Part shown: positions 7,065 to 20,149 of the stretch, piece after piece | Position numbering within the stretch: position 1 is the stretch's first letter | Layout: each line of letters starts with the position of its first letter | Assembly (NCBI GenBank): GCA_900316625.1 | Contig: ONDO01000001.1 | Span: 1 to 64,000, forward strand | Reading direction: 5' to 3' | DNA from: an uncultured Lachnospiraceae bacterium | GTDB lineage: Bacteria; Bacillota; Clostridia; Lachnospirales; Lachnospiraceae | Length of the DNA stretch: 64,000 nucleotides | Notes under the pieces: generated by a model | The model's database searches: none | Told to the model about the DNA's origin: nothing | Seen by the model: the letters and a program-made list of their open reading frames with translations, nothing else | Program-made: the position numbers and the translations under genes

Positions 7065-8093
7065 TTACAGCTCCTGGATTACTGAAATCAGCTTCTCTAC
7101 CTCTTCTTCACTTGTCGCCCAACTGGTACAGAAACGAGCGATGCGTCCTCTCTCATCTCTGCCACAATCTTCAAAGACAAAATCTTCTGAAAGACGATCT
7201 GCATTTTCATCCGACAGGATTACAAACTGCTGATTGGTATAGGAATCTGCCATCAAGGGAATCTTCTTCTCTTCAAAGGCTGCCCGAATCTGCATCGCGT
7301 ACTGATCCGCACGTTTGCTTGCCTCAAAATATTCACCATTGGAGAGCATAGTATGAAACATAAGTCCCATTAACCAGCCCTTTGCCATCACTGCTCCATT
7401 CTGCTTCATATAGGCTTTAAACCGAGGTTTTAAATCCTTATTCAGAAGAACCAGGGCTTCTCCAAAGAGTGCACCGCACTTGGTTCCACCCAGATAAAAA
7501 GCATCCGTATAAAGGGCAAGATCCTCCAGAGTCACATCATTATTAGATGCACCAAGACCATAGGGAAGACGTGCTCCATCAACAAAGAGATACATGCCAA
7601 ACTCTCTGCAGACCAAAGACAGGTTCTTCAATTCTTCCTTGCTATAGATCGTTCCCTGTTCCGTCGGAAAAGAGATATATACCAGCTTAGGCTCTGTCAG
7701 ATACTCTGCTTCTTCGCCATAATACGCTTCTGCGACCTTTTTTACCTGGTCTGCATCAATCTTACCCTCCTTGTTGGGAAGTTCTAAGATCTTATGGCCG
7801 GTATTCTCAATGGATGCTGCTTCATGCGCATTGATATGGCCGGTATCTGCACAGACAACACTCTGCACAGAAGTCAGAGCGCGTGCGATCAGAACATAAT
7901 TTGCCTGGGTTGCCCCGGGAAAATACCAGATATCCGCATCCTTCCTATGAATCAGCTTACGAATCGTATCGCTTGCCTTATCACACCAATCATCTGTTCC
8001 ATAGCCAGCGTGAGACTGACAGGCATCCTCAGAAAGAGCCTGCATAATATCGGAGAAAGCCCCCCTGTTATAGTCATTATTAAAACGAATCAT
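7065..8093 (-). CDS. Low-specificity L-threonine aldolase (PLP-dependent)
   Basis: The enzyme would cleave L-threonine or L-allo-threonine to glycine and acetaldehyde in the cytoplasm. The 342-residue sequence fits the beta-eliminating lyase/threonine aldolase fold: N-terminal FNNDYNRGAF, the DTGHINAHEAA segment, the cofactor-binding DGARLPYG around Asp172, and the PLP lysine in GGTKCG (Lys205). The start overlaps the stop of the relQ-type gene by one base (TGATG), so translation is coupled to it. This makes a metabolic enzyme the last gene of a long signalling run. Substrate stereochemistry cannot be told from the sequence. Confidence 0.9.
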   Translation of the reverse strand: MIRFNNDYNRGAFSDIMQALSEDACQSHAGYGTDDWCDKASDTIRKLIHRKDADIWYFPGATQANYVLIARALTSVQSVVCADTGHINAHEAASIENTGHKILELPNKEGKIDADQVKKVAEAYYGEEAEYLTEPKLVYISFPTEQGTIYSKEELKNLSLVCREFGMYLFVDGARLPYGLGASNNDVTLEDLALYTDAFYLGGTKCGALFGEALVLLNKDLKPRFKAYMKQNGAVMAKGWLMGLMFHTMLSNGEYFEASKRADQYAMQIRAAFEEKKIPLMADSYTNQQFVILSDENADRLSEDFVFEDCGRDERGRIARFCTSWATSEEEVEKLISVIQEL

Positions 8094-8842
8094 CAGATGT
8101 TCCCCTCCTTGTATTCATTGTCAGGATCCGGCAATTCCAAAGGAACGATCTGACTTCTGACATATTCCATTCTGCGATCCAGATCCGCACACTCTTCTGC
8201 GCAGATGGAGAGTTCCTTCTGCAGAGCCTCTATCTGTTCTGCAGATAATTTCTTCTTGTAACGCAGCTTGTGTTCCAGTGCTGCCCAGAAGTCCATAGCT
8301 ATGGTTCGAATCTGCACTTCGACATACATCATCTTCTTACCGACTTCGGTGAAGATCGGCGTACGCACAATAAGGTGCAGGGAGCGATAGCCATTGGGCT
8401 TTGGATGATTGATATAATCCTTTCTCTCCACCAGTTCTATATCATCCTGCTGCAGGAACACATCAGCAATACGGAAAACATCCTCCTCGAAGGAACAGAT
8501 GACACGTACACCTGCAATATCCCGAATATTCTCTTCCACGGATTCGATGGAGAAGGGAAGTCCCTTACGCTCTACCTTACGAATAATGGAATCCATGCTC
8601 TTCACACGGGTTTTGATGGACTCGATCGGATTACCATCATATTTCACGCCCATGCGTTCATTTAATACCTTAAACTTAGTCTCTACCTCATAGACTGCGC
8701 ACTGGTAATTGGCCATCTCCTGCCTCCAGGGCAGAGTCTGCTCATCCATGGTATCCAGTAAACTATTCAGATTCAGTCTCTTCAGCCAGTCGGCAGGAAT
8801 TATTCCATTCTGAAACTGCTTGAGATTCTCAATTTCGTTCAT
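8093..8842 (-). CDS. relQ: Small alarmone synthetase (RelQ/YjbM type GTP pyrophosphokinase)
   Basis: This 249-residue protein has only the RelA/SpoT synthetase domain, so it should make (p)ppGpp from ATP and GTP/GDP without the hydrolase domain of long Rel. The features are an N-terminal helical part, DIAGVRVICSFEEDVF, the catalytic HPKPNGYRSLHL, and VEVQIRTIAMDFWAALEHKL with the conserved Glu and Gln. Length is typical of small alarmone synthetases. Its start overlaps the end of the upstream kinase by four bases (ATGA) and its stop overlaps the aldolase start by one. It is thus tightly coupled to two-component genes, which is not the usual setting. Confidence 0.88.
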   Translation of the reverse strand: MNEIENLKQFQNGIIPADWLKRLNLNSLLDTMDEQTLPWRQEMANYQCAVYEVETKFKVLNERMGVKYDGNPIESIKTRVKSMDSIIRKVERKGLPFSIESVEENIRDIAGVRVICSFEEDVFRIADVFLQQDDIELVERKDYINHPKPNGYRSLHLIVRTPIFTEVGKKMMYVEVQIRTIAMDFWAALEHKLRYKKKLSAEQIEALQKELSICAEECADLDRRMEYVRSQIVPLELPDPDNEYKEGNI

Positions 8843-10653
8843 TCATTACCCTCATTTCTGCCGTAATCACTTAGTAATCTCTTAGAACGATAAATGGTTT
8901 CGTCGAATACTTCAAGCATATTCTGATGACGACTGACAAGATAAGGGTCTGTATCCTCCCTCTGCATGCGGTTCGCAAGCTTCTGCATTTCTGCTGCTGC
9001 ATCGGATAATTTCTTTGCTCCCACATTCAAGGCATTGCTCTTCATGGAATAGATGAGTCTCAGATAGAGTTCCTGATCCTTGCCAAAAGCCTCCGCGAGC
9101 AGACGACGCTTCTCATCTGCATAGTGCACTGTCAGCCGTAATATACGGATATAGAGTTCCATGGAATCACCACAGTAAGCCAGTCCCAGTTTGGTATCGA
9201 GAATATTCCCATCATCCTTCATCTCCAGCCCCGAGCGAAGAGGAAGAATTACGGTAAATGTAGAGCCCTGACCATAAACACTGTTTACCTCGATCTTGCC
9301 ATCCATCTTATGTACCAGCTCACTTACAACGGCAAGGCCCAGTCCGGTACCCTGAATATGGGCATTCTTCTGCCCATCCATTCGGGCGAACTTATCGAAA
9401 AGATGCGGAATATCCTTTTTACGAATGCCAATACCTGTATCAGAAACCGCAAGGCACAGCCTTCCGTCTGTGGTAAGGCTGATCTCCAATGCCACATAAC
9501 CGTTCGATGTATATTTGACTCCATTCGCAATCAGATTGATCAGGATCTGACGCAGGCGAATGCTGTCGCCATACCAGATGTCCGGAATTCCATCCGATTC
9601 ATGAATGATAAACTGTAAACCCTTGGCTTCCGCCATAACCGTCATCATCGAGCGAATATCACACAGTACTTCAGACAGATGGAAACGTAGAACGAACAGT
9701 TGTAAACTGTCCGACCGCGCGTGCACCATATCGAAGATATCACGCACCAGATAATCCAGAGTTTCCTGGGAGGCTGAGATGCTTCTGGCATAGGACCTGG
9801 TCTCTTCATTTTTTGCCTTAAGCTCTAATTCCCCTGCATCTTCTCCAAGAGCATAGAGAGGCTTACGAATGTTCTCCGACATTCTGCGAATAAACATCTC
9901 CCACTCTCTTGCCGAATATTCAGCCTCTTCCCCTGCCTGTCGAACATAACCCATCATGTCGATCACACTGTGGTAATCCCTGGACTCCATCGCGAAGAAG
10001 AGAATATACGTTCCAATCGAAATCACCGTAAGGCCCAGAGGCACTGTCTGTGGGAAGCAGAAACGATAGATACAATAAGACAGTGTGATCAGGAAAAGAA
10101 TGGTATAACTGCTTACGTGTAAATAAGTAAACTTTCTGCATACCGGGAAAAAGACAAGCATGGCAACCAGGCCCAGGGCCAGTTCAACCGTAAGGCCCAG
10201 GTAAAATACCATCATGCCGCCCATAATCTCATCGGCCGGCTGTGTCATTTTCAGGAGAAAGGCTCTCGAGGCCATAAGAACCAGCACGATACCATAGAGC
10301 ACCAGAGTCCAGTCGAAGATCCAATGCACCGTATCAAGATGTTTCTTAGGCCAGTCTGTGTATGCCGCAATGTATTTTATGAAGAAGTATGGCGGTAGAC
10401 ACTTCATCAGATATACGGAACCCGAGATCAGTACTGCCAGATAATATGGCAGGCCGAGATTCATATTCAGGATCACCATTCCAAAGACATCGTAGCTTGT
10501 CGCAAGAAGAAGTGTGGTCAGATAGGAACGAAAGGCAGCTCCGTGCTTGGTCGCATTGCCATACTGAAGGAAGGTGAAGACCAAAAGGATCAGGAGAAAA
10601 AATACAGAAGTCAGTTCAATATAGATATTTATATTGACGTGGAAGCACTCCAT
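8839..10653 (-). CDS. Membrane sensor kinase-like protein with ATPase but no acceptor histidine
   Basis: The 604-residue protein has about six membrane helices (1-220), then a HisKA-like helical pair, a HATPase domain (about 350-475) and a degenerate HPt-like tail. Where paralogues read MSHEIRTP this one reads MSENIRKP, so the phospho-accepting His is Glu260. In the tail, the HPt histidine of HALKSSSRTIGA is replaced by Tyr535 (IYSMKSNALNVGA). The ATP-binding N box (INLIANGVKY), DTGIGI and GTGLGL are intact. There is no REC domain. It overlaps the end of the upstream histidine-bearing kinase by 25 bases and has a strong AAGGAGG. I infer that it binds ATP and may phosphorylate its neighbour in trans, or serves as a scaffold. 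Confidence 0.85.
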   Translation of the reverse strand: MECFHVNINIYIELTSVFFLLILLVFTFLQYGNATKHGAAFRSYLTTLLLATSYDVFGMVILNMNLGLPYYLAVLISGSVYLMKCLPPYFFIKYIAAYTDWPKKHLDTVHWIFDWTLVLYGIVLVLMASRAFLLKMTQPADEIMGGMMVFYLGLTVELALGLVAMLVFFPVCRKFTYLHVSSYTILFLITLSYCIYRFCFPQTVPLGLTVISIGTYILFFAMESRDYHSVIDMMGYVRQAGEEAEYSAREWEMFIRRMSENIRKPLYALGEDAGELELKAKNEETRSYARSISASQETLDYLVRDIFDMVHARSDSLQLFVLRFHLSEVLCDIRSMMTVMAEAKGLQFIIHESDGIPDIWYGDSIRLRQILINLIANGVKYTSNGYVALEISLTTDGRLCLAVSDTGIGIRKKDIPHLFDKFARMDGQKNAHIQGTGLGLAVVSELVHKMDGKIEVNSVYGQGSTFTVILPLRSGLEMKDDGNILDTKLGLAYCGDSMELYIRILRLTVHYADEKRRLLAEAFGKDQELYLRLIYSMKSNALNVGAKKLSDAAAEMQKLANRMQREDTDPYLVSRHQNMLEVFDETIYRSKRLLSDYGRNEGNE

Positions 10654-12029
10654 GCATTCCCTCCTTCCATAACCAGTGAGAGCACAGCGAAAAGTTTCTC
10701 TCTACGGATGGGTTTCTCAATATAGGCAGAGAATCCCTCCGCTCGATAGAGTTCCATACATTCCACACCACTGTTTCCTGTCATCATAATGACAGGAGTC
10801 GACCGAATCATTGGCTTCAGAGCATGAAAGGTCTCAATGCCATCCATTTGGGGCATCTGATGATCCAGAAAGATACAGTCAAAATCCCGCATTCTGGCCT
10901 TTGAAATGGCTTCCTCTCCACTTAGAACCGATACTACTTCCAGTCCGGTTCCCCTCATAATGCCTTCTAAGACACGAAGATTCATAGGGGTATCATCCAC
11001 ACAAAGAACCGACATATTACGGTAGGTAAGTTTCTTTACCTCCATCTTGCTCTCCTGTTCTTTCCCGGAGGAAATGGAAGCAGAAGGACTACTCTTCTGT
11101 TCTTTCTTCGCCTGGTCGAGAACGCTGTTTACAAAACTCAGCAATTCATTTCCATCCCGGTCAATCTTCTCCGTCAAAGCCAGAATCAAAGGATCCTGAT
11201 CTGAGGACTGAATAATCTGATTCATGCCCAGAATTGCATTCATAGGGGTACGGATCTCATGCGTCATGGATGCAAAAAATTCCTTCTTGGCAATTCTCGC
11301 TTCTTCCGTCTTCGCCTGGGCCTGCTGTCTCTCCAAAATCAGTTCTGAAAGTCTACGGTAATCTGGTGACTCGATGGAGAAAAAGAGGTTATATACACCG
11401 AGGATTGCACCACAGTATGCCACAGGGAATCTGGCACCATAGACTGCCTGCAGAGCACAGCTAAAGAGGACCAGAACATAGGTAATATAGAGAGCCGCTC
11501 TTTGTTTTCTGCTAAATTCCTTCTTATGAACTATGATCGAAATGAATGCACAGGTAACAATGAACAGAGGAATTACATAGCCGATCGTCAGTTGTAAGGG
11601 GCCATGAACATAGACCTTATGTTCTTCATCGTAATCCACCACCAGCGGGAAGAAGAGATTGAGTATCACCGGGATTGTAAAAAAGACAATGATGACCAAA
11701 AATACCTTCTTCAATAGATGCACAGCCTGGGTTGGCTGGTAATAGGAGAAGATATAGAGAATCAGAAGATATGCGATATATCCGAAAGACATATAGTTCA
11801 CGGTATTGAGAAAGCGGATCAGGAAATGTGGGACATGTCCTGCCATGCCCTGCGTCACGATCATGGTCACAACATCGATGATAGCTGATAGCACACAGGC
11901 ATAGGTCAGTATCCGGTATTCGAATCTGGTCTCATCCCTGTCAAAAAAAAGGAATACACACAATACCAGACCGAACACCGCTGCCGTTGCTTCAAAATAG
12001 ATATTCGATTCTACCAGGAAGTTTTCCAT
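10629..12029 (-). CDS. Truncated hybrid kinase: membrane domain, HisKA and REC, no ATPase
   Basis: The 466-residue protein starts with a membrane domain of about seven helices (1-220) similar in layout to those of its neighbours. A HisKA helix with SMTHEIRTPMNAILG (His257) follows, and then, after a short Ser-rich linker, a REC domain (about 338-455) with SVLCVDDTPMN, acceptor Asp389 in CIFLDHQMP, and the EKP lysine. The HATPase domain that should lie between HisKA and REC is missing, with no sign of a frame break. The next gene has the mirror-image defect (ATPase, no His). Spacing of eight bases from the upstream HD-GYP frame and an AGAGGAG just before the start indicate one operon. Confidence 0.85.
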   Translation of the reverse strand: MENFLVESNIYFEATAAVFGLVLCVFLFFDRDETRFEYRILTYACVLSAIIDVVTMIVTQGMAGHVPHFLIRFLNTVNYMSFGYIAYLLILYIFSYYQPTQAVHLLKKVFLVIIVFFTIPVILNLFFPLVVDYDEEHKVYVHGPLQLTIGYVIPLFIVTCAFISIIVHKKEFSRKQRAALYITYVLVLFSCALQAVYGARFPVAYCGAILGVYNLFFSIESPDYRRLSELILERQQAQAKTEEARIAKKEFFASMTHEIRTPMNAILGMNQIIQSSDQDPLILALTEKIDRDGNELLSFVNSVLDQAKKEQKSSPSASISSGKEQESKMEVKKLTYRNMSVLCVDDTPMNLRVLEGIMRGTGLEVVSVLSGEEAISKARMRDFDCIFLDHQMPQMDGIETFHALKPMIRSTPVIMMTGNSGVECMELYRAEGFSAYIEKPIRREKLFAVLSLVMEGGNAWSASTSI

Positions 12030-12037
12030 AATCTCCT

Positions 12038-12601
12038 CTAGCTCTCACGCATCGTGTAGTCTTTATCTTCATCAATCATCTCTAACATGATCCTGCCGTA
12101 GTAAGGATCGAACTGGGTACCACAACCGCTCGCAATCTCCCTGCGAACCGCAGCCTGCTCCATGACATCACGATAGCTCCGCTTGGAGGTCATGGCATCA
12201 TAGGCATCTGCAACCCCGATGATTCTGGCAATCTCCGGAATCTCACTTCCAATCAGACCATCCGGATATCCCGTTCCGTTATAACGTTCATGATGCCAGT
12301 GGGCACCAACTGCAATATTTGGAATTTCAGTAATATTTTGAAGAATCCGGGATCCAATGACCGGATGCGTACGGATCTTCATGTATTGTTCATCCGTTAA
12401 CATGCCTTTATCATTGATCACATCATCCGGGACACCAATCTTACCGATGTCGTGCAGTAGACCGGTATAGTAGGCTTCCTTCTGTACCTCTTCTGACTTA
12501 CCGGCTCTTCTTGCAATCTCCTGGGAGTACTGGGCCACTCTTCCACTATGTCCATGTGTATAATGGTCCTTGGCATCCACTGCTCCGGAGAGTGCTTTCA
12601 T
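12038..12601 (-). CDS. HD-GYP c-di-GMP phosphodiesterase domain (severed C-terminus of upstream kinase)
   Basis: The 187 codons encode a nearly complete HD-GYP domain: the LLHDIGK metal site (His50, Asp51), THPVIGSRIL, HHERYNGTGYPDG with the GYP signature, and VADAYDAMTS. Such domains hydrolyse c-di-GMP. The frame is open without interruption back to the TAA that ends the large hybrid kinase at 12626-12628, and the codons between (FELLSIQT) continue the linker usually seen between REC and HD-GYP. No ribosome binding site precedes the ATG at 12601. The domain is therefore either made only by read-through or reinitiation, or is a nonsense-mutated remnant. All visible catalytic residues are kept, which suggests recent loss or continued use. 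Confidence 0.75.
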   Translation of the reverse strand: MKALSGAVDAKDHYTHGHSGRVAQYSQEIARRAGKSEEVQKEAYYTGLLHDIGKIGVPDDVINDKGMLTDEQYMKIRTHPVIGSRILQNITEIPNIAVGAHWHHERYNGTGYPDGLIGSEIPEIARIIGVADAYDAMTSKRSYRDVMEQAAVRREIASGCGTQFDPYYGRIMLEMIDEDKDYTMRES

Positions 12602-12625
12602 CGTCTGGATTGACAGAAGTTCGAA

Positions 12626-15607
12626 TTATGCCTTACGTTTCTCTGCCACTCTGGTCTGTCTTGCAACCTCCATCTGCAATCTGTGCTGAAGGAAGTTTAG
12701 TTCCAGAATACGGTCTACACGCTGGAGCATAATTTTCTCTACATATGGTTTATGAATGAAGTCCATTGCTCCGGACTTCAGTCCCTGTAATTCTGCCTCA
12801 CGATCTTCATCACCGGTAAGGAAGATCACCGGAAGATCCGTAATCTGCTTCTCTTCATGTAATTCCCGCAGGAATTCGAATCCATCCTTCTCCGGCATAT
12901 GGATATCTAAGAGGATCAGATTTGGACGTTCTTCTTCTAAGAGATCCATAGCCATATCCGCAGAAGATGCCGTCATAACATCATATCTTCCCGAGAGCAT
13001 CTGCTTTGCGATATCTCTTCCCAGATCATCATCATCCACGACCATAACCTTCCATCGGAGTGGACGCTCGAGTTCCGTAGAAAGAGGCGCTTCTACGAGA
13101 GGCTGCACCGGACGATCTTCCGTATCTAAGTCTTTCTCCAGAGATTCCGGAAGAATCTCTTCGGTATGCTGGTCGGCATCTCCATCCTGCTTCAGTGCTT
13201 CACTGATCTTTACCAGAATATCTGTATATTCTTCCATCACCTCCCGATGATGCTCCCTGATATAATCCGTTCTTTCTTCCTTGCAGGCATCTTCCAGGGC
13301 CTTGGCATCCTCTGACAATTGGTCCGCACCAATGGTTCGGCTCGAACTCTTCAGGGCATGAACACCGATACGGTAATTATCCCAGTCTTCACTGCCATAG
13401 TTCTCTTCTATCTCTTCTCTACGATTTCCTTCTACGTAATCATTCAGTATGACCAGATAGAAATCGATACTGTCCGCACAGTAAGTCAGGGCTGCTTCCG
13501 TATTCAGGAAGGAGCCTAGAACTTCCATACTCTTTGCATTTTGATTAAGGGCGCCGGACATTGCGGAAGTCAGGCCCTCTTCTTGCCCCACTTCCGCGAC
13601 ATTGGCTGATCGCTCGGAAACACTTCTACCTGTCAATCTCTCAATCGTATCGATCAATTCCTGTCTTACGACAGGCTTCAGCAGATAAGCAGAGAATCCC
13701 TGATGAATATATTCTCTCTGTACATCCGTAACCGCATTTGCTGTCAGGGCAACTACGGGAGTATGGGGACAGAGATTTTCATCCCGGATAATATGCATGG
13801 CTTCAACACCATCCATCACGGGCATCATGTGATCCATGAAGATAATGGAGAATGGCTGAGCGCTGTTTCGAATCAGATTCAGAGCTTCTTTTCCATTCTC
13901 TGCCTTAACGATTCGGTAGCCGGTTCCAGACAAAAGTCTGCGGAAGAGATCGAGGTTCAGTCGATTATCATCCACCGCCAGAATGGTTCCCTTCTGTCCA
14001 GGTGCAAGCAGGGAAGACTCATGGTTATTTCCTTCCTCTCTGCTGCTAAATCCACTCGCTACCATGTCTGAATAAGCACTTACCGTCTCATCAATAGCAG
14101 CAGACAGGTTCTTGCCGATGTATTCTTCCCGGTTGGTATTCTCCAGATTCCGCGCTGCCATCTCACCAATCGTCTCTGTACCAACACGTTCCTGCTTCAG
14201 ATGGAACCAGAAACGAGAACCGACTCCATAAGTGGAGTCATACTCTAACCTGGAATCCATCATCAATAGAAGCCTGGTTACCAGTGACAATCCAAGTCCC
14301 ATGCCAAGTACGCTGCCCGTATGCTTCTCATCCATGCGAAGGAAGCTCTCAGAGATGCGTCTCATATCATCTCTTCGCATACCGATACCGGTATCTTCCA
14401 CAGAGAAGAGAAAGCCATCTCCGTTCCATCGAAGGGTAATCGTGATCTGTCCATGATCTGTATACTTGACCGCATTTGAGGTCAAATTATTCATTATCTG
14501 AAGAATACGTACATGGTCACCATAGAGGTTCTCAGGGAACTCCGGATCCACATGGATGAGTACCTTCAGTTTCTTATCTGCGTTAAAGAATTCCAGAGAG
14601 GTCAGCATATCCCGTATCATACTCTGGGTCTGGTAGACGCTTTCATTTACGGTTGCTGTACCATCCTCCAGCTCCACAAAATCCTTGACATTGTTCGTCA
14701 TCGACAGAAGATTCTGGCCTGCTGCACGAATCTTAACTGCATCTTCTGCCGTATCCTTCTCTCTGGTATTCTCCAGGATGAGGCCGGCATATCCGAGTAC
14801 CGCATTCAGAGGAGTGCGAAGTTCATGGGACATATGAGATAGGAAGGATGATTTTGCATTACTGGCTGACTGTGCAAGAGCAGCCGACTTCTCAGCCTCT
14901 CCCCGGATCATCTTCAATTGTTCCATACTCCAGATCATCTGCTGATAATCCGGTGTCTCTAAGAGCACCAGCATAAAAAGCATACCCATGGAGATGGAGA
15001 AGATGGTCAAAAGAACTGTTCTTAAGTAGAGCATCTGCAATAGGGATACCCCCAGGCAGAAAGTGAGGTAGCTTGCCATCAGAATCTTCTTCCTGATATC
15101 TTCCAGCTCTTCTGCACGTAAAATCGTACGAATAAAGCAATATAGAAGCAGAGAATATGGATAGAAATAAATACTGTAGTAAATGGGACCATGGATATAG
15201 AGACCATTCTCAAAAGATGCAATAATCCCTGTCGGTACATTGGCAATCAGCAAGGTACAGAAAATAACAAAAGCGACATTGGCAATCCGTTCCATCCTTC
15301 TCGCCATCCGGGTCGTCTTTGCAAGCGTCATGGAATAACGCATAAACTGGAATCCAAACAGGCCCAGGCTGATAAAATAAAGCGTATTTAAGAAGAGATT
15401 GACTCCATCCGGGATGTCACTTCCCATACTGATGGTAAATGCCGTCAAAACATCCAGGAAATTCGCTAACAGATTAATTATGGCAAGAACAAAGAATTCC
15501 CGATTACGTCGAATCCGCAGATCATACTGTATGGATATATATAGAACCAGCATCACCATGAAAATCATGGATGAGAGTTCAAAATCCACATTGAAGATAC
15601 ATCTCAT
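12626..15607 (-). CDS. Large hybrid histidine kinase (membrane-HisKA-HATPase-REC-HPt-REC)
   Basis: The 993-residue protein is a full phosphorelay: membrane sensor (1-220), HisKA with SHMSHELRTPLNAVLG (His261), HATPase with NLTSNAVKY, DTGIGM and GMGLGL (about 365-475), REC1 with acceptor Asp592 in IIFMDHMMP, HPt with HALKSSSRTIGADQL (about 775), and REC2 with LILLDIHMPEKDG (about 905). It ends in a coiled linker QHRLQMEVARQTRVAEKRKA and TAA. The same frame goes on directly into an HD-GYP domain, so the ancestral protein was probably about 1190 residues with a c-di-GMP phosphodiesterase output. The start is two bases after the stop of the lone REC gene, with GGGAGAG as ribosome binding site. 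Confidence 0.92.
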   Translation of the reverse strand: MRCIFNVDFELSSMIFMVMLVLYISIQYDLRIRRNREFFVLAIINLLANFLDVLTAFTISMGSDIPDGVNLFLNTLYFISLGLFGFQFMRYSMTLAKTTRMARRMERIANVAFVIFCTLLIANVPTGIIASFENGLYIHGPIYYSIYFYPYSLLLYCFIRTILRAEELEDIRKKILMASYLTFCLGVSLLQMLYLRTVLLTIFSISMGMLFMLVLLETPDYQQMIWSMEQLKMIRGEAEKSAALAQSASNAKSSFLSHMSHELRTPLNAVLGYAGLILENTREKDTAEDAVKIRAAGQNLLSMTNNVKDFVELEDGTATVNESVYQTQSMIRDMLTSLEFFNADKKLKVLIHVDPEFPENLYGDHVRILQIMNNLTSNAVKYTDHGQITITLRWNGDGFLFSVEDTGIGMRRDDMRRISESFLRMDEKHTGSVLGMGLGLSLVTRLLLMMDSRLEYDSTYGVGSRFWFHLKQERVGTETIGEMAARNLENTNREEYIGKNLSAAIDETVSAYSDMVASGFSSREEGNNHESSLLAPGQKGTILAVDDNRLNLDLFRRLLSGTGYRIVKAENGKEALNLIRNSAQPFSIIFMDHMMPVMDGVEAMHIIRDENLCPHTPVVALTANAVTDVQREYIHQGFSAYLLKPVVRQELIDTIERLTGRSVSERSANVAEVGQEEGLTSAMSGALNQNAKSMEVLGSFLNTEAALTYCADSIDFYLVILNDYVEGNRREEIEENYGSEDWDNYRIGVHALKSSSRTIGADQLSEDAKALEDACKEERTDYIREHHREVMEEYTDILVKISEALKQDGDADQHTEEILPESLEKDLDTEDRPVQPLVEAPLSTELERPLRWKVMVVDDDDLGRDIAKQMLSGRYDVMTASSADMAMDLLEEERPNLILLDIHMPEKDGFEFLRELHEEKQITDLPVIFLTGDEDREAELQGLKSGAMDFIHKPYVEKIMLQRVDRILELNFLQHRLQMEVARQTRVAEKRKA

Positions 15608-15609
15608 AC

Positions 15610-15975
15610 CTACTCTCCCAACAGCTTATTTACCTGTGACATAAGATCCTGAGGGAGGAATGGCTTATTCACATAACCGACAGCATGAAGTTCTTCTGCC
15701 CGGTTCTGATCCCTGGCATCATTTGATGCTGTAAGGAACATGACCGGAAGATCTGCCCCTCTTTCCAGAGTACGAATCTTCTTCAGGGTATCAAACCCAT
15801 TCATTTCTGGCATCTCGATATCCAATAGCACAAGATCATACTCCTCACGTTCAATGGAACGAATGGCTTCTTCCCCGCTCTCTACGGTCTCGGATTCATG
15901 ACCTGCCTTTGACAATATATACTGTGCCATACGGCGGTTCATCATATCATCGTCCACGACTAAGATCTTCCCCAT
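15610..15975 (-). CDS. Single-domain response regulator (REC only)
   Basis: The 121-residue protein is only a receiver domain: ILVVDDDMMNRRM acid pocket, acceptor Asp in LVLLDIEMPEMNG (about 52), Thr in FLTASND and Lys in NKPF. With no output domain it probably acts as a phosphate shuttle or sink for the hybrid kinases around it. GGGAGAG precedes the start, and the next gene begins two bases after the stop. A 54-base gap separates it from the upstream HD-GYP gene. Confidence 0.93.
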   Translation of the reverse strand: MGKILVVDDDMMNRRMAQYILSKAGHESETVESGEEAIRSIEREEYDLVLLDIEMPEMNGFDTLKKIRTLERGADLPVMFLTASNDARDQNRAEELHAVGYVNKPFLPQDLMSQVNKLLGE

Positions 15976-16029
15976 ATTCTCTCCCTTAATGATCTAATCT
16001 ATCCTTCAAGCCACTTTTCTATCGAGTGT

Positions 16030-17487
16030 TTAGACGTTGTCTCTCCTAAGCCCCAAGGCAACTGCTACTCTCTCTCGAACATATATCGGTGAAGAGGGCT
16101 TTAAGAGATAATCCGACATTCCAACCTGATAACCTCTCATGATGGTCTCTTTACCAGAGATGCCGGATAGGAAGATAATCGGAACATCCCGCATCCCATG
16201 CGCCTTCATCTTCTGAATCATCTCAATCCCATCCATGCCCGGCATATCAATATCCGCAAGGATCAGATCCGGATAGCCGGAAGTTCGCACCAGATTCAAA
16301 GCTTCAATTCCGCTACTTGCCAGGACAACTTCATATTCCTCTTCCAAGGCATGCTGGGCCTGTAGCCTGGAGACTCCCATATCATCAACCACCAGAACCT
16401 TCTTCCGTCGATGGGCCGGATTCCGGTCTTCATTCAGTTTCTCTACATTCCCCTTATAATCGACCGGCATAATGCAGGAATTGGTAATCAGGATATTCTC
16501 ATAGGCAGGATCCCTTGCTAAGTTCACCATTTTGCCAGAACCTAACATATGTACGATCGGGCGCTTTAGAATCGGGGTCATACCTATCACCAGACCATAC
16601 TCTCCATTGGACAGATGTACCGTGGTTCCTACAAAGAAGGGAGACAGAATCTCTTCCAATGCCCCTACCACCTTCCTGGAGAAGAGGATCTCCGCTCCGG
16701 ACTTAAGATAAGCAATGGCATCCTTGGGCGCATAGGCCCTCTGATAAGGGCGATGACTGGTCAGGGCATCATATACGTCCGCTACATGTATAATCTTCGC
16801 TGCTAAGGGAATCTCTCTATCCCTCTTTCCGAAGGGATAACCACTACCATTCTCGTTCTCATGGTGAAGAGCAATGGCCTGATAGATAAAAGCATTCATC
16901 TCCCCATTCTCACGCAAAACTTCCACAGACTTCTCCGGGTGGGTCATAATCTCCTGGTATTCCTCATCCGAGAGCTGACCCTTTTTACATAGGATCGATG
17001 CAGAGATGAGATTTTTGCCCAGATCATGGCTAAGACCTGCTGCGATCAGATTTTTAACATCATCCGCTTCCATTCGCATCTTGAAGCCAATAGCCGCACA
17101 GATCATACCAACGCTGACATTATGATGCAGGGTGTAAGTCCGGAGACTTCTAATATCGAATTCAGAGATAATGCGTTCCTCTTCCTTCTTTGCCGCCAGC
17201 TCATCGTAGATCAGCCGGGCAACCTTCAGAATTTTCTCGGGCTTCGCGGACTTTACAGCCAGTAAAGCCTGAACAAAGGTCTTCTCTGATACGAAATATG
17301 GGAATTTCACATTTTTAGAAAAATCGTCTTCCACATAACAGCCCAGATAACCCTCCAGCTGGAAACGGCGAACCATCTCCTCGTCAATCTCTCTTCCAGC
17401 CTTAAACTCTGGTTCTCTATTATCCGTATATATGTTTCTACCTAAAATCGAGCCCGAAAGAATAGCGTCTACAGGTACAAATCTCAT
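16030..17487 (-). CDS. HD-GYP phosphodiesterase with C-terminal receiver domain
   Basis: This 485-residue protein would degrade c-di-GMP under phosphorylation control. After an N-terminal DUF3391-like part (1-115) comes the HD-GYP domain with GLSHDLGK (His154, Asp155), THPEKSVEVL, LHHENENGSGYPFG and HVADVYDALTS, then a small beta-rich segment, and a REC domain at the C-terminus (about 365-480) with KVLVVDD and ILADIDMPGMDG. The usual order is REC first, so this arrangement is reversed. The start codon overlaps the stop of the PAS hybrid kinase by four bases, which makes that kinase its likely partner. Confidence 0.92.
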   Translation of the reverse strand: MRFVPVDAILSGSILGRNIYTDNREPEFKAGREIDEEMVRRFQLEGYLGCYVEDDFSKNVKFPYFVSEKTFVQALLAVKSAKPEKILKVARLIYDELAAKKEEERIISEFDIRSLRTYTLHHNVSVGMICAAIGFKMRMEADDVKNLIAAGLSHDLGKNLISASILCKKGQLSDEEYQEIMTHPEKSVEVLRENGEMNAFIYQAIALHHENENGSGYPFGKRDREIPLAAKIIHVADVYDALTSHRPYQRAYAPKDAIAYLKSGAEILFSRKVVGALEEILSPFFVGTTVHLSNGEYGLVIGMTPILKRPIVHMLGSGKMVNLARDPAYENILITNSCIMPVDYKGNVEKLNEDRNPAHRRKKVLVVDDMGVSRLQAQHALEEEYEVVLASSGIEALNLVRTSGYPDLILADIDMPGMDGIEMIQKMKAHGMRDVPIIFLSGISGKETIMRGYQVGMSDYLLKPSSPIYVRERVAVALGLRRDNV

Positions 17488-20120
17488 AGAGACTCTCTCC
17501 CTTCCAATGCCTCGCTGACTTGCGACAGAATCTCGGCATAATCCTGCATCACCTTATGATGATTCGCCCGAATGAAGCCGATATCTTCTCTCTTCGCTGC
17601 CTCTTCCAGTTTCAGAGCTTCTTCACCAAGCTGGTCTGCACCAATGGTTCTTGAACTGCTTTTCACTGCATGAATAAATACGCGATATTCCTCCAGGTTC
17701 TCGACCGCATAGGCTTCTTCCAGCCGGTCTTTCTTCTGATCCTCTACATAACTCGTTAGAATTTCACGGAATAGTTCTTCATCTTCCATGCAGTAATTCA
17801 TTCCTTTCTTCACATCAAGAAGGGTTAAGGAATTCAGAAATTCGGAATCATATGTCTCTGTCTCTGCCTGATCTTCCTCCTGCTCTCTCCCCTCTTCTGT
17901 TTTTATAAAGAGACGAATCTTATCTTCGAGGGCTTCCATCTCCAAGGGTTTCGGAAGATATGCTGCAAAACCGAGTTCCAGATATCTGGCCTCATCTCCC
18001 TTCATTGCATTGGCGGTAAGAACGAAAATAGGCGTATCCTGGTTCTTCGAATCTTCCTCTGTCTGTATCAGCCGCATGGCATCCACACCATCCAGGACCG
18101 GCATCAGATGGTCTAAGAGAATCAGATCATAATGATTCTTCTTAGAAAGGGCGACAGCCTCTTCACCATTCTCCGCCTCATCCAGTGTCACTTCTGTATG
18201 ACGAAGATAAGCCTCTACGACTTTACGGTTCATCGGAAGATCATCAGCAAGCAGAATCTTCCTGCCAGACAGGATCAGCTTCTTACCTTCCCTACCAAGA
18301 CGAATCTGTTCATCCCTTATCTTCTGGATCATATTCTGCAAGGAATCACCAATCGGATTCGGATCTTCGACCTTCTGAGGAATCACTATGGTAAATGTAG
18401 AGCCCAGACCATATGTGGAATCGACACTAACATCGCCTCCCATAAGTTCTGTCAGCTGCTTCACAATGGACATTCCGAGTCCGGCACCGGAGATTGCCTG
18501 ATTCTGCTTCTGATCAAAACGGGAAAACTTATCAAATAAATGAGGAATATCTTCCTTCCGAATTCCCATACCCGTGTCACTGATACGAACCACCAGATGG
18601 AGAAGGCTATTGTTCTCGTTTTCGTCATCCTTTGTCTGTCGGCCGATCACGAAAGTAATACTGCCACTCGAGGTATATTTCACAGCATTAGAGAGAATAT
18701 TCGAGATGATCTGTCGAATACGCATCTTATCTCCCCTTAACATACGGGGCAGATTACGATCATATTCCAGACGAAAATCCAGACCCTTCTTCTGTGCCAT
18801 GGGTTGGAACATCTGTCTGCATTCATCGATCAGACCAACGGTATGATAAGAATCCTCCACGATCTCCATCTTGCCCGATTCGATTCTGGAGAAATCAAGA
18901 ATGTCATTAATTTGTGTCAGTAAGGCCTCAGATGCTATCCGAATATTCTCTGAATATTCGAGAATCTGTCCTTCCGTCGCTTCCTGCAGTATCACCCGGT
19001 TCATACCAAGGATGGCATTAATAGGGGTACGAATCTCATGTGACATGGATGACAGGAAGGCTGATTTGGCAGTACTGGCAGCTTCTGCCTTACGAAGCAT
19101 CTCTTCCTCATGTGTTAGATCTGTTGCTGCAACAATGATGGCATAGGGCTCTTTATTTCGATCCAGTGCAGGAGATATGTTCAGGTTATATCCCGACTTG
19201 TTGTCAATCGTTCTGGCATTGATAGAGAAAGCCTCTTCCTTCATCGCACGCAATAACAAAGAATTTTCATCCTGTAAGCGGAAGATCTCGCCTGGAGACT
19301 TATGAAGCAGTTCTCCGGTGTCAAAATGATCCTGTACATATTTATTGTAGATACAAAGCTTCCCCTCCATATCGAAGACAAAGATTCCGATATTGACTGC
19401 ATTCATAAGGAAACGGTTCAGATTTTGAACTGACAGATCAAAGGCACTCGATCTGGTTGCTGCAAGCCAGATAAAGTAAAGGGTCAGAGCGCCTCCAAAG
19501 GCGGATGTGGGGAAGGATACCCCAAGTGTCAGATTCAAAAAGGTATCTGGGAGTGTCGTGAAGATAAGTGCAAAATTCGAAAAATATAAGTTCTTAACAA
19601 ACTGTCTGTCACGTTGGAAGTGTAATTTACGGAACCAGAAAGTAGAGAAAACCAGCATACAAAGAGCTGAAATAACAATAAAGATATAGTGATAGGTACG
19701 GTAGGGAGAATAGAGTGCGCGCCAGGTCATCCAGTCACCTAGCTTATAGAATTCATCCACTTCCGGAGATGAGAAATATACCCAGTCCAGGAGAGCCAGA
19801 TCCGTATAAACAATTAAAACTGCGTATTTGGCCTTAGGGAGAATCCTGGCACGGAAGAGATACATCACAACCTCTCCTACGACGAAGCCATCCACACCTG
19901 CAAGGCCGATCATTCTAAAGATCTGCGCCTGCTCAATGGTCTCAGTGATACCTACCATTCCATAGCCAAAAGACCATACGGCAGCGGAGATTCCAAGGAA
20001 CAGAAGGGACACCCTCAGATTACTGTGCTTCTCTCTTACAAAATATGAAATTCCCAGATTTGCCGGGATTGCAGTCACTAAAAGCAGAGCGACGCTCATA
20101 ATCATACCAAAACTTGCCAT
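17484..20120 (-). CDS. PAS-containing hybrid histidine kinase (membrane-PAS-HisKA-HATPase-REC-HPt)
   Basis: About 878 residues. Numbering from the first possible ATG: seven hydrophobic helices (1-230, resembling histidine-kinase 7TM regions), a PAS domain (about 235-345), HisKA with SMSHEIRTPINAILG (His363), HATPase with NILSNAVKYT, DTGMGI and GAGLGM, REC with LILLDHLMPVLDG, and HPt with HAVKSSSRTIGADQL. All phosphorelay residues are present. The ATG at 20120 is preferred because GGGAG lies seven bases before it; an ATG six bases upstream is too close. It is the first gene of the signalling run and diverges from a LytTR regulator. Confidence 0.92.
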   Translation of the reverse strand: MASFGMIMSVALLLVTAIPANLGISYFVREKHSNLRVSLLFLGISAAVWSFGYGMVGITETIEQAQIFRMIGLAGVDGFVVGEVVMYLFRARILPKAKYAVLIVYTDLALLDWVYFSSPEVDEFYKLGDWMTWRALYSPYRTYHYIFIVISALCMLVFSTFWFRKLHFQRDRQFVKNLYFSNFALIFTTLPDTFLNLTLGVSFPTSAFGGALTLYFIWLAATRSSAFDLSVQNLNRFLMNAVNIGIFVFDMEGKLCIYNKYVQDHFDTGELLHKSPGEIFRLQDENSLLLRAMKEEAFSINARTIDNKSGYNLNISPALDRNKEPYAIIVAATDLTHEEEMLRKAEAASTAKSAFLSSMSHEIRTPINAILGMNRVILQEATEGQILEYSENIRIASEALLTQINDILDFSRIESGKMEIVEDSYHTVGLIDECRQMFQPMAQKKGLDFRLEYDRNLPRMLRGDKMRIRQIISNILSNAVKYTSSGSITFVIGRQTKDDENENNSLLHLVVRISDTGMGIRKEDIPHLFDKFSRFDQKQNQAISGAGLGMSIVKQLTELMGGDVSVDSTYGLGSTFTIVIPQKVEDPNPIGDSLQNMIQKIRDEQIRLGREGKKLILSGRKILLADDLPMNRKVVEAYLRHTEVTLDEAENGEEAVALSKKNHYDLILLDHLMPVLDGVDAMRLIQTEEDSKNQDTPIFVLTANAMKGDEARYLELGFAAYLPKPLEMEALEDKIRLFIKTEEGREQEEDQAETETYDSEFLNSLTLLDVKKGMNYCMEDEELFREILTSYVEDQKKDRLEEAYAVENLEEYRVFIHAVKSSSRTIGADQLGEEALKLEEAAKREDIGFIRANHHKVMQDYAEILSQVSEALEGRESL

Positions 20121-20149
20121 ATTCATACTCCCACTTTCTTATGAATAGC

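Follow-up and report, generated by a model that had tools for sequence, protein, structure and literature searches.

Can two adjacent membrane proteins, one with a phosphoacceptor histidine and the other with an ATPase domain, act together as a single histidine kinase? This question is raised by two overlapping genes, termed P1 and P2, on contig ONDO01000001.1 of an uncultured Lachnospiraceae bacterium (assembly GCA_900316625.1). The stretch analyzed, referred to below as the window, comprises 64,000 nucleotides (positions 1 to 64,000 of the forward strand). An earlier note on this DNA had proposed that P1 phosphorylates P2 in trans within a heterodimer, that this design could be new, and that the pair arose, together with a large kinase encoded upstream (K993), by tandem duplication followed by reciprocal loss.

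Complementary losses in P1 and P2

10629..12029, minus strand: P2, 466 amino acids (aa), transmembrane (TM) domain, HisKA with His257 and REC, without an ATPase domain and without HPt
8839..10653, minus strand: P1, 604 aa, TM domain, degenerate HisKA (Glu260), HATPase and degenerate HPt (Tyr535), without REC

Both open reading frames (ORFs) were found as the earlier note had described them, with a 25-base overlap and with His257 of P2 and Glu260 and Tyr535 of P1 in place. P2 begins with a multi-TM domain that extends to about residue 230, followed by a HisKA domain in which His257 lies inside an HEIRT motif and by a REC domain with Asp389. P1 has the same TM domain as P2, carries Glu260, Asn261, and Lys264 in its HisKA domain, and continues with a HATPase domain whose conserved motifs extend to about residue 473. 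Scanning P2 against Pfam revealed Response_reg (82.4 bits) and HisKA (49.3 bits) and no HATPase family at E values up to 0.1. In the corresponding scan of P1, HATPase_c was detected with 99.7 bits, HisKA (14.2 bits; cut-off, 26.9) and Hpt (19.2 bits; cut-off, 24.6) stayed below their cut-offs, and Response_reg was not found. A hidden ATPase in P2 was ruled out because only 26 residues separate HisKA from REC and leave no room for it, compared to 193 to 227 residues in the complete relatives C29a, L063, and K993. A misplaced start of P1 was ruled out by a ribosome-binding site (AAGGAGG, 6 bases 5' of the ATG) and the clean overlap with P2.

With no HATPase, P2 falls outside the hybrid kinases, which carry HisKA with its histidine, HATPase, and REC on one protein. 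P1, in which Glu260 replaces the phosphoacceptor histidine, belongs to the histidine pseudokinases. The acceptor histidine and the ATPase lie on separate proteins, neither of which has both, as defines a split kinase. The Pfam scans and the residue check confirmed that the paired genes carry complementary losses: P2 has an acceptor without an ATPase, and P1 has an ATPase without an acceptor.

Conservation in P1 was assessed over 48 near-invariant columns, defined among nine other sequences aligned with P1, including the DHp piece of P2. P1 kept 26 of the 27 near-invariant positions in the ATPase versus 8 of 21 in the DHp region (Fisher p = 1.2e-5). The ATPase positions kept include the residues of the N, G1, F, and G2 boxes. 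The ATP-binding positions expected of the ATPase half of a split kinase are conserved. Among the DHp residues lost are the acceptor histidine, the Glu next to it, and the HExxT threonine. In P2, 17 of 23 near-invariant positions of the DHp region are intact, the acceptor included. When P1 and P2 were left out of the profiles, the P1 HisKA domain scored 18.6 bits, the lowest of 57 rows, and its HATPase domain scored 160.5 bits, 26th from the bottom among 50 rows. An AlphaFold2 model of the cytoplasmic part of P1 revealed a confident ATPase fold: from residue 101 to 250, the mean predicted local distance difference test (pLDDT) score was 82 to 96 in 13 of 15 ten-residue blocks and 50 and 70 in the other two. 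The C-terminal part was modeled poorly; the mean pLDDT was 69.9. The best structural matches of the model were GacS, HK853, and RetS; DivL structures also matched. To judge from the sequence, the P1 ATPase looks selected and its own acceptor given up.

P2 and P1 may thus be two halves of one split membrane hybrid histidine kinase. Complementary anatomy, the conserved P1 ATPase, and the gene overlap make phosphorylation in trans, as the earlier note had it, the most likely single mechanism, and we judge the chances for and against it to be about evenly balanced. The ancestor would have been a tandem of paralogous kinases, each with HisKA, HATPase, and REC; a pair of that kind survives on contig C29 of the same genome. 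P2 would have lost its ATPase, and P1 its phosphoacceptor histidine and REC. The overlapping genes would cause both proteins to be made together, and P1 and P2 would pair via their DHp helices. The P1 ATPase would then phosphorylate His257 of P2. From this histidine, the phosphoryl group would reach the REC domain of P2 and possibly go on to an HPt domain, for example the one in K993. Any phosphatase activity would reside in P2, where the HExxT motif is kept. What the sequences show is the domain anatomy, a preserved P1 ATPase next to a degenerate DHp region, and kinship with paralogues that have every domain; we infer the heterodimer, the trans-phosphorylation, the direction in which the phosphoryl group flows, and the order in which the duplications took place.

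Tandem relatives and origin of the pair

The TM domain gave no Pfam match better than an E value of 0.047 when eight members were scanned. It is common in the bacterial family of the window, where 148 of 397 genomes contain it at an E value of 1e-8 or better. The TM profile matched five kinases in the window's own genome (E 3.2e-76 or better) and found matches in six of the eight other genomes of the genus (best E, 2.9e-19); P2 had no match at E 1e-40 in those eight genomes. For the analysis of architectures, 60 stretches from among the family-wide TM-profile matches listed were fetched and, together with other loci, read with profiles made here; the duplicate loci L001 to L008, L010 to L024, and L028 to L057 were skipped. 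L025 to L027 were found with P2 as the query and the remaining rows with the TM profile, so that the sample is biased and not random. The TM-domain tree comprised the 70 rows with a TM score above 70 bits, and the concatenated tree comprised the 55 of those with HisKA.

These analyses revealed a tandem pair on contig C29, C29a and C29b, as the closest relatives of P1 and P2. The gene order is that of P2/P1, each protein has HisKA, HATPase, and REC, and the genes overlap (by 26 bases if the first start listed is used). In the TM-domain tree, P2 grouped with C29a (support, 99/94) and P1 with C29b (97/86). The grouping of P2 with C29a stayed at 91/90 in the concatenated tree. The most economical history, which is favored but not proven, would be duplication of an entire pair, followed by division of labor within one copy. 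Several results count against unit duplication. P1 and C29b were joined with only 74/23 in the concatenated tree, a grouping flagged as two long branches meeting. The TM domain of P1 has nearly equal pairwise scores to P2 (147) and C29b (146). Pairwise scores also place the P1 ATPase nearer C29a, and the P2 HisKA domain nearer C29b than C29a. C29b itself has its full set of domains, but its ATPase contains an insertion and scored 59 bits, the lowest of 50 rows; the motif residues of this ATPase are present by eye.

Tree tests in part changed the origin proposed in the earlier note. Descent from tandem paralogues remains probable. The sisterhood of P1 and P2 was neither favored nor rejected (approximately unbiased test [AU], p-AU of 0.435 in the TM-domain tree and 0.479 in the concatenated tree). 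The inclusion of K993, a 993-aa kinase, in the same duplication did not hold: as a sibling of P1 and P2 it was rejected on the TM-domain tree (p-AU of 0.00088 for a clade of P1, P2, and K993; 0.0233 for a clade of K993 with all four proteins of the two pairs). In the concatenated tree, K993 grouped with uninterrupted TM-kinase-REC-HPt-REC-HD-GYP proteins (99/83).

Ordered tandem pairs were also detected in three more genera (G066, G361, and G367). All six genes encode an acceptor histidine, HATPase, and REC; the first genes form one starred clade and the second genes another in both trees. These tandem pairs of TM-domain hybrid kinases, at L087 (7887-12031), L093 (7419-11288), and L098 (7124-11367), are candidate heterodimers. 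A fuller history can be put forward tentatively, in which tandem complete kinases were already heterodimeric and were duplicated as a unit, one copy was fully split in a reciprocal manner, and the undivided sister pair was retained in the genome.

Incomplete relatives and alternative readings

Among the 55 HisKA rows of the TM family, six lack HATPase (P2, L025, L026, L027, L075, and L091), and all six keep the acceptor histidine. Four rows lack the acceptor histidine (Glu in P1, Gln in L065, Arg in L071 and L096), and all four have a HATPase match. ATPase loss falls on three tree branches (P2; L025/L026; L027/L075/L091). In 392 genomes of the order, read with three candidates per genome, unbroken matches from TM through REC were found in the window's own genome and in G012, G148, and G719. 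In the bacterial family of the window, ATPase-less hybrid kinases form a design that recurs and is partly conserved. A contig scan of named genomes returned four loci related to P2, each of them a kinase with HATPase, and none of the 1030 plasmid records with a match had a place covering 80% of P2.

The surroundings of these relatives differ. The loci L027 (3608-11217) and L091 (2176-8608) each encode, besides a lipoprotein-like substrate-binding protein (assigned by eye) and a complete kinase, an ATPase-less TM-HisKA-REC-HPt protein and a REC-HPt protein. L075 (5049-9972) and L174 (6041-10925; G719, found later and outside the 55 rows) come from two species of one genus and share a gene set for a degenerate kinase, an ATPase-less TM-HisKA-REC-HPt protein, and a REC protein (36%, 49%, and 71% identical, respectively); the set contains no working ATPase. 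L065 (6886-9099) is P1-like, with Gln at the acceptor position, an ATPase match, no REC, and an altered HPt site, and adjoins a complete kinase and a single REC protein. The acceptor Gln of L065 and the degenerate ATP sites of the neighboring kinases in G148 and G719 were read by eye.

Several observations weigh against P1 and P2 being halves of one kinase. Searches with either of the two proteins, with the TM profile, or with a profile of ATPase-less proteins covered 61 relatives, 9 genomes of the genus, 397 genomes of the family (4 and up to 7 candidates per genome), and the 392 genomes of the order (3 per genome), neighbors being read at fetched loci only. No second reciprocal pair was found at the loci read, and an ATPase-less and an acceptor-less protein were neighbors only in the window. 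L025 and L026 (60% identical; G394 and G081) have, by eye, no kinase among neighboring ORFs of at least 200 aa, L027 and L091 (G012 and G414) lie in a shared cluster that also encodes a complete kinase and a REC-HPt protein, and L075 and its G719 counterpart adjoin a kinase in which acceptor and ATP site are both degenerate. Since ATPase-less relatives occur without a complementary neighbor, ATPase loss alone does not imply a split-kinase mechanism, and the varied neighbors indicate that such proteins evidently have other uses. P2 scored low for both HisKA (70.1 bits, seventh lowest of 57) and REC (108.7 bits, fifth lowest of 54), the P1 DHp hairpin was modeled with only moderate confidence, and complete kinases of the same genome could phosphorylate P2. 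Moreover, the heterodimer model needs a trans-type DHp geometry and fails if P1 and P2 are of the cis type. On the supporting side, in the parts of the literature available for this and the following comparisons, mixing of ATP-binding-dead and His-dead EnvZ mutants led to phosphorylation, and BarA was reported to act in trans throughout (PMC4734776). By the same kind of test, the hybrid kinases ArcB and EvgS were reported to act in cis, a result for which the authors urge caution (PMC4734776). The topic of cis versus trans is also treated in PMC5956149.

The pair is surrounded by the following genes:

12626..15607, minus strand: K993, a hybrid kinase with all domains (TM-HisKA-HATPase-REC-HPt-REC) from a different branch of the TM family; possible alternative phosphoryl donor
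12038..12601, minus strand: HD-GYP ORF, which shares the frame of K993 and is set off from it by one in-frame TAA
15610..15975, minus strand: single REC protein, which its position alone makes a candidate partner
8093..8842, minus strand: RelA/SpoT-domain (small alarmone synthetase-like) gene, 4-base overlap with P1

The TAA that separates K993 from the HD-GYP ORF lies at window positions 12626-12628; L058 to L061 carry both as one unbroken protein. The stop may mark a genuine split, stem from a recent nonsense mutation, or reflect an error of assembly. The synthetase-like gene is 78 to 80% identical in G002, G004, and G006, and no HisKA, HATPase, or REC was found within the 12.6, 19.0, and 15.4 kb read there; its linkage to kinases is not kept in these three relatives of the genus. 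A long same-strand signaling run with short gaps (window 7065-20126), containing hybrid kinases, HD-GYP, REC, RelA/SpoT-domain, and pyridoxal phosphate (PLP)-enzyme genes, is possibly one transcription unit. Phosphoryl flow onward to the K993 HPt domain, the single REC protein, or the synthetase-like gene would be speculation from gene order.

The alternative that survives best is that P2 is a phosphorelay or phosphatase hub phosphorylated by a complete kinase, either K993 or one from C29, and that P1 has a regulatory role as a pseudokinase, its ATPase domain sensing nucleotide or altering the conformation of a partner, as proposed for RetS/GacS and DivL/CckA. K993, with all domains present, lies just upstream, and this reading would suit both the G012 and G414 clusters, with their complete kinases, and the G148 and G719 loci, where the adjoining kinase has no working ATPase; DivL and RetS are mentioned in the literature, as far as the partial sources extend. 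A purely regulatory P1, however, has no obvious need of ATP-binding residues, yet nearly all are kept, and the ATPases of L065 and L064, which are REC-less like P1 (L064 keeps its histidine), scored 104 bits each versus the 160.5 bits of P1. We regard the hub as somewhat unlikely.

Decay of both genes, with the losses as neutral steps toward pseudogenes, appears improbable. P1 is the longest end branch in both trees, its DHp and HPt regions are degenerate, the HisKA and REC domains of P2 score low, the eight other genomes of the genus have no match of comparable strength, and a stop interrupts the neighboring K993/HD-GYP frame. However, neither of the two frames is interrupted, each has a plausible ribosome-binding site, and the P1 ATPase is free of decay in profile score and conserved positions. 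It is equally doubtful that P1 and P2 form mixed heterodimers with the C29 relatives, the window pair tuning the C29 pair: P2 groups with C29a and P1, less securely, with C29b, but local identities are about 25 to 39%.

Comparison with known systems

If P1 and P2 are indeed two halves of one kinase, they would be a natural counterpart, in a transmembrane HisKA hybrid kinase, of the engineered dimer of a His-dead and an ATP-dead protein, with a before-and-after comparison in one genome. Such an obligate heterodimer would let two different membrane sensors work as an AND gate. The undivided related pair in the same genome makes the step from two complete kinases to obligate halves directly testable. 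ATPase-less hybrid kinases recur in the bacterial family of the window, some of them kept between species, and the question thus exceeds one locus.

According to PMC3591291, 1556 of 42417 HisKA proteins in SMART have no HATPase, and split HisKA kinases were foreseen there. A literature search reaching part of the field and few subscription journals found no membrane HisKA hybrid kinases that form such a reciprocal pair in nature. For ChrS/HrrS, bacterial adenylate cyclase two-hybrid (BACTH) analysis revealed heterodimers with the native proteins and not with a truncated pseudokinase (PMC9491836). RcsC/RcsD combine a membrane hybrid kinase with a kinase-like phosphotransfer protein, divide the steps of a relay, and have been suggested to stem from an ancestral duplication; RcsC, however, phosphorylates itself and RcsD is the phosphotransfer protein (PMC7418988), whereas P1/P2 are split between ATPase and acceptor. 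RetS/GacS and DivL/CckA resemble P1/P2 in joining a histidine-kinase-like regulator to a kinase partner, as the partial sources present them, and the P1 fold matches GacS, RetS, and DivL structures. In these systems, the signaling partner is itself a complete kinase.

Two published systems come nearer, and with them the suggestion that the split design is new has to be given up. CheA3/CheA4 of Rhodobacter (Cereibacter) sphaeroides, described as a split kinase (PMC3591291), are encoded in one operon, and an ATPase without an acceptor and its acceptor partner act as one kinase. According to the authors, they arose by duplication and loss, and they are reported from 20 other Rhodobacteraceae genomes (PMC10542144, in the part available). 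The two cases differ in class, CheA3/CheA4 being a cytoplasmic chemotaxis kinase with the acceptor on a P1/HPt domain and the window proteins membrane HisKA proteins, and in distribution, since the CheA pair recurs across genomes whereas the reciprocal pair of the window was seen in one genome only. In group A Streptococcus, FasB and FasC are adjacent six-TM kinase-like proteins reported to form a heterodimer, in which the FasB kinase domain is modeled to phosphorylate His246 of FasC (PMC12675982). FasC retains a dispensable kinase domain, FasB retains DHp histidines, and the schematic described in the available part of the source is without REC. FasB/FasC are very similar to P1/P2. P1/P2 add variation within split kinases and are not a new type of kinase.

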